Positions 5,137 to 46,692 of a DNA stretch of 49,703 bases are shown here, piece after piece. Source of the stretch: Phycisphaerales bacterium (GTDB lineage: Bacteria > Planctomycetota > Phycisphaerae > Phycisphaerales > SM1A02); the NCBI GenBank assembly GCA_009691705.1, contig SIAR01000016.1, positions 1 to 49,703 of the forward strand, read 5' to 3'. The notes below the pieces were generated by a model that was given only the letters and a program-made list of their open reading frames with translations, did not search any database and was not told the origin of the DNA. Made by a program: the position numbers and the translations under genes. Position 1 is the stretch's first letter; every line of letters begins with the position of its first letter.

Positions 5137-6474
5137 TCAGGCATTCACGAGTGTTTGATTGCGGTCTGGACCAACGCCAACCATTTCGATCGGAATGCCG
5201 AGATGCTCCTCGATAAACGCGAGGTATGTTTCTGCGTTGATCGGAAGCGACTTGCGGTCGGTCACCTCGCGCAATTCTTCGGTCCAGCCTCGAAATGTTT
5301 TGTAGACCGGAGTCGCCTGAGCGAGCAGTCGGGCATCGGGAAAGAAGCGGTCGACGACAGATCCATCGGCTAGCCGATAGGCGGTGCAGATCTTGAGTTC
5401 TTCAAATCCTGCGAGCACGTCGAAGAGGGTGCAGGCGATGCCAGTCGCGCCGCAGACCATCACGCTGTACTTCACGGCGACAAGGTCGAGCCATCCCGTG
5501 CGGCGGGGACGCCCAGTCGTGGTGCCGTACTCCCGACCTCGTTCGCGAATGAGGTTGCCGGTCTCATTGAGTTGCTCGGTGGGGAATGGACCCGCCCCAA
5601 CGCGCGAGCTATACGCCTTCATGATGCCCAGGATGCGTCCTAGGTGATGCCCCGGAACTCCAGTTCCTGATGGGATTCCAAGCGTCGAGCAGTTGCTACT
5701 AGTGACATATGGATAGGTGCCGTGATCGATATCGAGCAGGCACGCGTTGGCGCCTTCAAAGAGAATCGACTGGTCAGCCTTGATCGCATCATGCAGCGCG
5801 TACACCGTATCGGTGATATGCGGGCGCAGTGTCTGTCCAAGCTCAAAGAATCGCGCTGCAAGGGCATCGGGATCGAGTGGCGGTGCTGCAACTCCGAGTG
5901 CCTTTAGCTCCGCACTGCGCAATCGACAGATCACGCGCAATCGGTCGCGCAGGTAGTCATGATCGAGCAGGTCACCCATTCGGATCGCAGTCGAGCGATT
6001 GACCTTGTCGGCGTACGCGGGACCGATGCCACGACGCGTCGTGCCGATCGCAAAACTTCCCCGTTCGTTGCTCGCGACACCCAAGAGAAACTCTTCGAGC
6101 GCCGCATCTTGTTCCTTGTGATATGGCATCACGACGTGGGCCCGGTCAGAGACTTGCAAATTCGTCTCAACATGCACGCCACGCGCGCGCAACTTGTCGA
6201 TCTCTTCTAGCAGTTTCTCGGGATCAACGACCACTCCGTTGCCGATGATGTTGCGCTTCTTTGGATTGAGAATGCCAGACGGAATCAGATGCAGCGCATA
6301 GCGCTCGCCTTCGACGACGACGGTGTGACCTGCGTTCGCGCCGCCGTTGTATCGCACGATCACATCGTGCTGGGCGGTGAGAAGGTCGACGACTTTTCCT
6401 TTGCCTTCGTCGCCCCACTGCAGTCCGACAACTGCGGTGTGTCGACGCGAATCATTTCGTGTTGAGTTCGTCAC
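5137..6474 (-). CDS. purA: Adenylosuccinate synthetase
   Basis: Catalyses the GTP-dependent joining of aspartate to IMP, the first committed step from IMP to AMP; cytoplasmic homodimer. The 445-residue protein carries the GTP-binding QWGDEGKGK loop near residue 20, [11 protein letters not shown], the [11 protein letters not shown] segment, [18 protein letters not shown], and the C-terminal [13 protein letters not shown], all in the usual order. I placed the start at GTG 6474 because conservation begins just after it and because a TAGACT box sits exactly 7 bases upstream; a longer in-frame extension would run into hemW. It is divergent from hemW, with 57 bases between the two start codons, and convergent with the Cys-rich gene, 21 bases apart. 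Confidence 0.97.
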
Positions 6475-6481
6475 ACGATCA

Positions 6482-6487
6482 AGTCTA
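6482..6487 (-). promoter_or_regulatory. -10-like box TAGACT of purA
   Basis: TAGACT on the reverse strand, 7 bases before GTG 6474, with no Shine-Dalgarno sequence between. Transcription starting 6-8 bases after such a box would begin at or next to the start codon, so the mRNA is probably leaderless. Confidence 0.45.
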
Positions 6488-6519
6488 GCGAGCCCCTCAG
6501 CGCGCGCAGTGCTGCCTGC

Positions 6520-6525
6520 TAGCCT
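6520..6525 (+). promoter_or_regulatory. Extended -10-like box (TGC-TAGCCT) of hemW
   Basis: TAGCCT with an upstream TG dinucleotide at 6517-6518 lies 6 bases before the GTG at 6532. No ribosome-binding site fits in the remaining bases. It mirrors the purA box on the opposite strand. Confidence 0.4.
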
Positions 6526-6531
6526 CGAGCC

Positions 6532-44945: not shown

Positions 44946-45868
44946 CGCCTAACAGACGATGATTGTGTGGAGAATTCAACGCGGTCGTTCACCACGGTTG
45001 ATTGCGATGAACTGCCAATGAGCAGCGGTGCGTTCATTCCCAAAGTTGAAATCGGATTGCGTTCAACGATGAGGCGAAGTGCAGCGCGGGGGATCGCCGA
45101 GAGATTCGTGCCAAGCGCATAAGAGTTCAGCGAGTAAATCGCCTCAACGGCCGCCGCTGGCGACGCGAATGGGAATCCAGATGCAAGGAAGATCTTGTCG
45201 AGCACTCCAGCTTCGTGCGCATGCAAGAGAGTCGTATAGAGACGCCAAGATTGCGAAGCGATGCCACTTGTGTCTGCGTAGATGCCAGGGTGCTTTGCAA
45301 GCAGGGCGATTGTCTCGTCGATCCACGGCGAGCCGATTTCACTCAAGACGATCTTGAGCGTTGGAAATGTGCGGGCGACTTCATCCCATGGAGTTGGTCT
45401 GTCAAACTCCATGATCATCGATGGAGTCATTAGTCCAGGACGAGTGACGAAGAGGGGGAGACGTTCTTTCGCACATCGATCAAACAGGCGCATCGCTGTC
45501 GAGTGGGTCGGGTGGAATCCCTGCGCACTTGGCGAGATGTTGACTCCAACGAGTCCGAGTGACTTGGCGTGGTCGAGATCGTCAAACCAAGAGGGGCACA
45601 TTGGATCGATTCCAGCAATGCCGGCAAGCCGGTGTGGCTGCCGACCAACGACTCCAGCAATGAACTCTGGTGGAACGACGGCGCTGAGGGCCTGCGACTT
45701 GAATCCATGAACGAGTGCACAACCGATGCACTCAAGAGCTTGCGTGTGGGCGCCGGTGGTGCCGTCGAGACCTCCGGGGCGACGCGCGGCGGCGCGAACG
45801 CCCTCAGCAAGCTCGAAGCCGAGTTGTTCGGGGGAGTGCCAAACCCGTGTCAGTACGTCGAAAATCAT
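44942..45868 (-). CDS. Amidohydrolase-fold protein without canonical metal ligands
   Basis: A 308-residue TIM-barrel protein of the amidohydrolase 2 type. The barrel rhythm is clear: IFDVLTRVWHSPEQLG at the start, HRLAGIAGIDPMCPSW, GLVGVNISPSAQGFHPTHS, LPLFVTRPG, LKIVLSEIGSPWIDETIALL, GIYADTSGIAS and DKIFLASGFPFASP. The usual metal-binding D-x-H-x-H after strand 1 is DVLTR, the His after strand 5 is Thr, the His before G after strand 6 is Glu, and the G-x-D near strand 8 is SGF. It is therefore probably not a metallohydrolase. ATG 45868 sets the N-terminus at the barrel; a longer frame overlaps ubiE. It follows ubiE by 29 bases and overlaps the lipoprotein start. Confidence 0.72.
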   Translation of the reverse strand: MIFDVLTRVWHSPEQLGFELAEGVRAAARRPGGLDGTTGAHTQALECIGCALVHGFKSQALSAVVPPEFIAGVVGRQPHRLAGIAGIDPMCPSWFDDLDHAKSLGLVGVNISPSAQGFHPTHSTAMRLFDRCAKERLPLFVTRPGLMTPSMIMEFDRPTPWDEVARTFPTLKIVLSEIGSPWIDETIALLAKHPGIYADTSGIASQSWRLYTTLLHAHEAGVLDKIFLASGFPFASPAAAVEAIYSLNSYALGTNLSAIPRAALRLIVERNPISTLGMNAPLLIGSSSQSTVVNDRVEFSTQSSSVRR

Positions 45869-45897
45869 GGTTCGTTTCGAGTGTAGCGAAATGTGGC

Positions 45898-46680
45898 TCA
45901 AGGCGCCACGAAACCGACCGAAATCACACATGTTCCCATCGTCAATGGATGTTGTGAGACTTTGGAGAATCCAGCGCAAATCAGTTGTTCGCTGAGCTGC
46001 GTCGGATCGAGAAATGTCTGCACGGACCTCGGCAAATAGCGATATGCCCCCGATTTGTCTCTCGCCAAAATGGTTGCGGTCCAGGGCATGATGTGGTTTG
46101 TGTAGATGCTGTGAAAGAAGCGCACGACTGGCGACGAGGGCTCGGAGAACTCAAGGACGACAAGACGACCACCCGGGCGCAGCACCCGTCTAAACTCACG
46201 AATCGCCCGCTGTGGATCTGCGACATTTCGAATTCCAAAGGCGATCGAGACGACGTCGAACGAACCATCGGGGTATGGCAGCTGCTGCGCATCGCCTTCG
46301 ATGTACTGAATCCCCGCGATGCGACCGCGGCCACGAGCGGCTTTCGCACGAGCGTGATCCAACATCGCCGGTGTGTAATCAAGACCAATGACATGCGCCG
46401 CACCGCCGCGCACGAATGCAATCGTTAAATCACCAGTGCCGCAGGCGACATCGAGTACTGCTGCACCACTCAGCGGAGCGGCTAACCGCACGGCCGCTCT
46501 GCGCCAATACTGATCAAGTCCAAATGAGTGGATTCGGTTGTTCAAGTCGTACGCATGCGCGATGGCAGTGAACATCTCGCGCACGCGATCAGATTTGTCG
46601 GCGCGCTCGTGAGGATTTCCGGTTAGTGAGGCGGGGTCCCAGCTTGACTCGGGGTGCTGCGGCTCGCGCGAAGGGCTCAT
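45898..46680 (-). CDS. ubiE: Demethylmenaquinone/2-polyprenylbenzoquinol methyltransferase
   Basis: C-methylates the quinone ring in the last step of menaquinone (or a step of ubiquinone) synthesis. The 260-residue protein carries VREMFTAIAHAYDLNNRIHS, the SAM-binding LDVACGTGDLTIAF, GLDYTPAMLDHARAKA, DVVSIAFGIRNVADPQRAI, and FRRVLRPGGRLVVLEFSEP. It ends with GTCVISVGF; all UbiE/MenG signatures are present. With planctomycetes usually making menaquinone, the MenG activity is more likely, but no men genes are nearby. It is divergent from the B12-fold gene, and a TAGGAT box lies 6 bases before its ATG. Confidence 0.95.
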   Translation of the reverse strand: MSPSREPQHPESSWDPASLTGNPHERADKSDRVREMFTAIAHAYDLNNRIHSFGLDQYWRRAAVRLAAPLSGAAVLDVACGTGDLTIAFVRGGAAHVIGLDYTPAMLDHARAKAARGRGRIAGIQYIEGDAQQLPYPDGSFDVVSIAFGIRNVADPQRAIREFRRVLRPGGRLVVLEFSEPSSPVVRFFHSIYTNHIMPWTATILARDKSGAYRYLPRSVQTFLDPTQLSEQLICAGFSKVSQHPLTMGTCVISVGFVAP

Positions 46681-46686
46681 TTCTCG

Positions 46687-46692
46687 ATCCTA
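46687..46692 (-). promoter_or_regulatory. -10-like box TAGGAT of ubiE
   Basis: TAGGAT on the reverse strand, exactly 6 bases before ATG 46680. At 17 bases further upstream lies TTTATA (46715-46710), a partial -35 match. There is no Shine-Dalgarno sequence. Confidence 0.48.

Follow-up and report, generated by a model that had tools for sequence, protein, structure and literature searches.

The genes of the 49,703-nucleotide contig SIAR01000016.1, one whole contig (here the window) of a Phycisphaerales draft genome (GCA_009691705.1; 1,985,919 bases in 46 contigs), are often preceded by a hexamer of the form TAnnnT that ends 6 or 7 bases before the start codon. Here, we report that this box recurs at the same position in much of the genome and in its congeners, and that it is very probably the -10 element of promoters, which at a distance of 6 or 7 bases would give rise to leaderless transcription starts. 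A preliminary description of the window had read the box as a sign of widespread leaderless mRNAs and had named two checks, a positional peak of the motif throughout the genome and a contrast between the first and the internal genes of transcription units. Both the peak and the contrast were found, and both support that reading.

Spacing denotes the number of bases between the end of the TAnnnT box and the start codon. Open reading frames (ORFs) were called from their coding potential, with no use of upstream motifs (541 ORFs); pooled training of the gene caller gave 562 own-genome ORFs and replaced per-genome training, which yielded fewer genes. The predicted peak was present in the 764,615 bases sampled, where a box stood at spacing 6 or 7 before 112 of the 562 ORFs, although chance would have placed one before 13.3; this excess equals 17.6% of ORFs, and spacings 8 to 11 contributed a further 9.7%. 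The chance rate was about 1.2% of ORFs at any given spacing (6.64/562). Among the 541 called ORFs, ATG starts numbered 57 at spacing 6 and 27 at spacing 7 (3.8 expected per position) and GTG starts 20 and 8 (2.7 expected). The onset at 6 was abrupt, with spacings 0 to 5 together yielding 26 ORF counts where about 39 were expected. A first, caller-free test on 401,875 bases, in which TAnnnT was paired with any codon opening an ORF of at least 80 codons, gave 40 ATG, 20 GTG and no TTG at spacing 6; ATG remained elevated over spacings 7 to 13, with 10 to 16 cases at each, and beyond spacing 14 each codon mostly counted 3 to 9.

TAnnnT is short and common, and chance or base composition might be thought to account for its occurrence near starts. 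To this explanation we assign a negligible probability, given the size of the excess at spacings 6 and 7, the lack of a peak for the reverse-complement motif (4 ORFs at spacing 6 and 6 at spacing 7, 5.2 expected each) and the lack of a clear excess under the same script in 150,000 bases of Escherichia coli K-12, the negative control (10/113, 7.0 expected). When a single one of the hexamer's three fixed letters was altered, no increase was seen at 6 or 7 either. As a positive control, 200,000 bases of Deinococcus deserti plasmid 2 gave 19/138 with 4.7 expected, including 7 GTG starts at spacing 6; TTG was absent at both 6 and 7. Six actinobacterial loci obtained through a PurA search were rejected for this purpose as containing too few genes (3 over 50 ORFs, 1.8 expected).

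The box had been ascribed to genes that start transcription units. In the sampled genome, genes divergent from their upstream neighbour had it at spacing 6 or 7 in 54/186 cases (6.5 expected) and genes overlapping their upstream neighbour in 3/88 (0.6 expected); the corresponding counts in congeners were 57/126 (4.9) and 2/40 (0.3). The contrast with overlapping genes thus held, with the correction that genes close behind another can carry the box as well. For genes following another on the same strand, it was found in 22/93 at gaps of at least 60 bases (2.9 expected), in 9/56 at 26–59 (1.5), in 7/42 at 12–25 (0.6), in 8/20 at 9–11 (0.3) and in 5/38 at 0–8 (0.5); at contig edges the count was 4/39 genes (0.4 expected).

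Boxes at genes close behind another are partly explained by the upstream stop codon, which supplies the first bases of the hexamer. When the gap before an ATG or GTG candidate was 9 bases, a TAG or TAA stop with T at the sixth base was present in 8/10 cases here and in 6/6 in congeners; at a gap of 10 these numbers were 5/8 and 3/6, and at gaps of 3–8 and 11–24 together 12/47 and 4/35 (summed by hand over the rows that had three or more pairs). Of the 77 boxes at spacing 6, eight include the stop codon of a called gene upstream. Window examples of boxes built in this way are those of glmU (spacing 6) and accD (spacing 7). Such overlaps could also be expected if the box were a translation signal in the mRNA, either contacting S1 or the ribosome or acting as an in-frame upstream stop that favours re-initiation: spacing 6 places the box in frame, 43 of the 77 boxes begin with TAA or TAG, and an S1 homologue is encoded. 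The other 34 begin with TAC or TAT, however, spacing 7 is enriched as well, and the box is hardly ever found before overlapping genes, the very place where re-initiation would be expected to count most. The same box is, in addition, found before genes that are not translated, and together these observations make a translation signal very unlikely.

The untranslated genes in question are those for tRNAs, 12/15 of which have TAnnnT 10–25 bases upstream in this genome, where the rate further upstream leads to a chance estimate of about 4/15 within the 35 positions inspected. One tRNA-Arg locus has the box at 8–12 in all seven congener stretches (7/7). As tRNA genes are untranslated and yet have the box, a signal for transcription is its best reading, and TAnnnT looks like the -10 element that ordinary promoters use in this genus of Phycisphaerae. 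A search for an accompanying -35 motif found none: a TTGACA-like sequence was seen with 1/112 boxes at spacings 6–7 and with 0/102 at 8–13, compared with 7/206 among boxes remote from any start. When the first T of the hexamer was missing, such a sequence occurred in 6/114 cases at 6–7 and in 20/1925 at a distance from starts, which hints weakly that a -35 element may substitute for a poor -10. The genome encodes a housekeeping sigma factor, whose regions for reading -10 and -35 look standard on inspection by eye.

Conservation was followed for 25 window genes in orthologs from congeners and from G019 and G023, two genomes of other genera; ortholog starts were picked doubtfully by the script for some genes (SurA-like, miaA and ubiE, for example), and these were counted unaltered. 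For ten genes with their own box at 6–7, the orthologs had it at 6–9 in 80/100 cases, at 2–5 in 0/100 and at 22–25 in 9/100, eight of these nine belonging to a single gene, the nucleoside permease treated below. Eleven genes without a box within 14 bases had orthologs with one at 6–9 in 3/106 cases, and four genes with a box at 8–11 in 8/28. A gapless column count gave an identity of about 0.6–0.7 across the box against about 0.3–0.4 further upstream. These data also bear on the possibility that the box is a -10 element whose genes have their true start codons further downstream, so that ordinary leaders would result. At spacing 6 the start chosen by the motif-blind caller was downstream of the box-linked codon in 22/77 cases, which is what this possibility predicts, but it coincided with that codon in 49/77 and was upstream of it in 6. 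Moreover, the box-linked codon is retained in many orthologs, as a GTG in purA and tilS, and few Shine-Dalgarno cores precede the called starts of such genes. We judge downstream starts to be extremely unlikely.

The position, strand, spacing and conservation of the box are seen directly, as is its link to tRNA genes; we infer the transcription start and the route of the ribosome. Where the box ends 6 or 7 bases before ATG or GTG, RNA polymerase would most likely start on the first letter of that codon or on the base just before it, and the ribosome would begin on the 5'-terminal codon of a leaderless mRNA. A box at 8–11 would leave a leader of 2–5 bases, and the box would in either case work without a recognisable -35. 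On the combined excess at 6–7 and 8–11, leaderless or near-leaderless genes may make up about a quarter of ORFs and more than 40% of the genes divergent from their upstream neighbour, while the remaining genes would have leaders with Shine-Dalgarno sequences or be translated within operons. Own-genome ATG starts with a box at 8–11 had a purine at -2 in 8/78 cases against 117/282 for boxless ATG starts; this deficit was absent in congeners (12/35 against 51/179) and was dropped as a feature.

Among the named records listed, those nearest to the PurA of this genome come from two metagenome-assembled genomes of Phycisphaerae, with 65% and 60% identity, which places the genome in the class Phycisphaerae of the Planctomycetota. 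The search covered 40 relatives, 18 of them in the same genus, and stretches were compared from ten congeners, five genomes of other genera in the family, seven of other families in the order and six outside the order. The ten congeners together had the box at 6–7 in 97/390 ORFs (12.8 expected; excess 21.6%), counted largely on the same genes with many orthologs entering repeatedly, so that these counts are not independent. This dependence is one of several points that weigh against the interpretation as a leaderless promoter. The own-genome counts come from 764,615 of 1,985,919 bases and from ORFs of a home-made gene caller. The signal weakens with distance, to 16/131 in other genera of the family (4.0 expected; excess 9.2%, mostly from G019 and G023) and to 24/300 in other families of the order (7.7 expected; excess 5.4%); there is little of it in the family members G024 (1/25, 0.8 expected) and G020 with G022 (2/27, 0.9 expected), and the six genomes outside the order showed no excess (12/255, 15.5 expected). 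TTG starts among the 541 called ORFs numbered 0 at spacing 6 and 5 at spacing 7, with 3.0 expected each; one congener ortholog of ubiE has a TTG start with the box at 6. In the gapless columns the fixed letters of the box were kept in 60, 61 and 69 of 95 cases and the middle letters in 54–60, scarcely fewer. Finally, mismatches to G005 after the box-linked start of 11 window genes (34, 21 and 47 of 110 by codon position) suggest coding from that codon onwards, but in the 15 bases upstream of it mismatches are likewise most numerous at the third position (3, 7 and 14 of 55), which makes this a weak test.

The leaderless or near-leaderless mode of expression would not be the only one in this genome. 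Shine-Dalgarno cores were found before 19% of divergent genes (8% in a control stretch) and 44% of overlapping genes (control 7%), and the 3' end of the 16S rRNA of G019, a genome of the same family, includes CACCTCCTTT; a search for the genome's own 16S found none in this draft assembly. Both the cores at overlapping genes and the G019 16S sequence speak against a lineage that has lost the Shine-Dalgarno route, and this idea was rejected. The best explanation is that leaderless or near-leaderless transcription coexists with a working Shine-Dalgarno route. Where Shine-Dalgarno sequences had previously been noted at dxs, the TlpA-like gene and mreB, Shine-Dalgarno-like sequences are indeed present in the window; they mostly recur in the orthologs shown for the TlpA-like gene and mreB, and in some of those for dxs. 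At dxs and the TlpA-like gene a similar box (TATACT and TATAGT, respectively) lies further upstream and is followed by the Shine-Dalgarno-like sequence.

The nucleoside permease appears to have made use of both modes. It is divergent from ispG, a neighbour whose box is constant in position among orthologs. The permease box stands at 7 or 8, with no Shine-Dalgarno-like sequence, in this genome and in G005, G001, G011 and G009, and at 22–25 in G016, G008, G012, G017, G014, G004, G019 and G023, and all eight of the latter have a Shine-Dalgarno-like sequence 7–12 bases before the start. A tree built from six other proteins puts the leaderless permease forms at two separate positions, one comprising G011 and G009 (support 100) and the other this genome, G005 and G001 (support 64), and both outgroups are leadered; at least two switches of mode would be the simplest reading. 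We lean, by a small measure, towards a more general proposal: that genes of this genus shift between leaderless and Shine-Dalgarno initiation over short evolutionary time, the -10 box being kept while they acquire or lose a leader of about 16 bases that contains an AAGGAG-like sequence, and that promoter boxes incorporate the stop codon of the gene before, which provides a close-following gene with its own leaderless transcript at no cost in extra DNA.

The architecture as such is already known, and what would be new is its occurrence in a lineage of Phycisphaerae. In the Deinococcota a TANNNT -10 motif is likewise found a few bases before ORFs with leaderless mRNAs, alongside Shine-Dalgarno genes; that is a different phylum, and the motif was tested there by mutation and reporters (PMC12340547), whereas here it is read from sequence. 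Mycobacterium tuberculosis resembles the present case in having a TANNNT -10 element without a -35 motif and both ATG and GTG starts, and its leaderless genes make up 26% of those with a primary start site; those starts were mapped by RNA sequencing (PMC3898074), while the ones proposed here are predictions. A survey of 953 bacterial genomes took a TANNNT located roughly 12 bases upstream of the translation start, in its TA-led genes, as a leaderless promoter, much as here, and mentions no Planctomycetes in its main text or in its list of groups with such genes (PMC3160421). One planctomycete was included in a study that used base bias to suggest initiation of a leaderless or S1-based kind (PMC5397173), the Deinococcota work presents a scan of the bacterial domain in a supplementary figure and has no planctomycetes in its main text (PMC12340547), and an anti-Shine-Dalgarno table has Phycisphaerae beside the figure 46 (PMC10783764). 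No report of leaderless initiation in Phycisphaerae was found in the literature searched, which left most subscription papers outside. If the interpretation is correct, widespread leaderless initiation reaches a planctomycete lineage, and the box rule could be used to correct gene starts in related metagenome-assembled genomes. Relatives with the permease in both modes, beside a constantly leaderless neighbour, would provide a natural test of how genes move between initiation routes.

The boxes of individual window genes are collected in Table 1. The hexamers and spacings given in the preliminary description for purA, hemW, the SurA-like gene, ispA, ispG, the permease, pgk and ubiE, all with the box at 6 or 7, were confirmed without exception, as were those of the receiver and POT genes. 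The box at 9 attributed to exbB exists, although the name of that gene comes from the preliminary description alone. The boxes of tilS, glmU and accD had not been listed before.

Table 1. TAnnnT boxes before start codons in the window.
Gene	Start codon	Box	Box position	Strand	Spacing	Orthologs and remarks
purA	GTG 6474	TAGACT	6482..6487	-	7	box at 6-9 in 14/15
hemW	GTG 6532	TAGCCT	6520..6525	+	6	6/6
SurA-like	ATG 11320	TAGACT	11308..11313	+	6	5/11 by script; three further by eye, before upstream ATG
ispA	ATG 15982	TACACT	15990..15995	-	7	11/11
exbB (name as in text)	ATG 16038	TATGAT	16023..16028	+	9	
ispG	ATG 20675	TACACT	20682..20687	-	6	box at 6 in 12/12
nucleoside permease	ATG 20733	TACTCT	20720..20725	+	7	4/12 at 6-9, 8/12 at 22-25
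pgk	ATG 25902	TACCCT	25889..25894	+	7	10/12
accD	ATG 28966	TAGGAT	28953..28958	+	7	at 7 in 7/11 shown; TAG (28953-28955) is the rpe stop
glmU	ATG 36770	TAGAGT	36758..36763	+	6	8/9; TAG (36758-36760) is the mreD stop
receiver gene	ATG 41116	TATCAT	41102..41107	+	8	5/7 at 6-9
POT transporter	ATG 42004	TACACT	41989..41994	+	9	1/1
amidohydrolase	ATG 45868	TACACT	45880..45885	-	11	2/8 at 6-9, rest at 10-12
ubiE	ATG 46680	TAGGAT	46687..46692	-	6	5/7
tilS	GTG 47547	TAGCAT	47535..47540	+	6	5/5

For two genes of the table the motif-blind starts differ from the box-linked ones, being placed at 28957 for accD and at 20793 for the permease, and the box-linked ATG codons of both genes are present in G005 too. 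Three genes, topA, miaA and the B12-fold gene, had been named as misfits, and indeed no TAnnnT ends within 14 bases of their given starts. Upstream of topA (24832-24859, minus strand) there is instead a TTGACA-like sequence paired with CATGAT, ending about 11 bases before the ATG, and the pair is found in 6/9 of the orthologs shown, all in congeners (TTGACT in one of them). The gene may thus be a variant rather than an exception, with a -35-type promoter and a very short leader. The B12-fold gene has a block GTCGATGAACTCTGC (46787-46801) directly before its ATG, of which several congeners have close look-alikes although there is no TA box.

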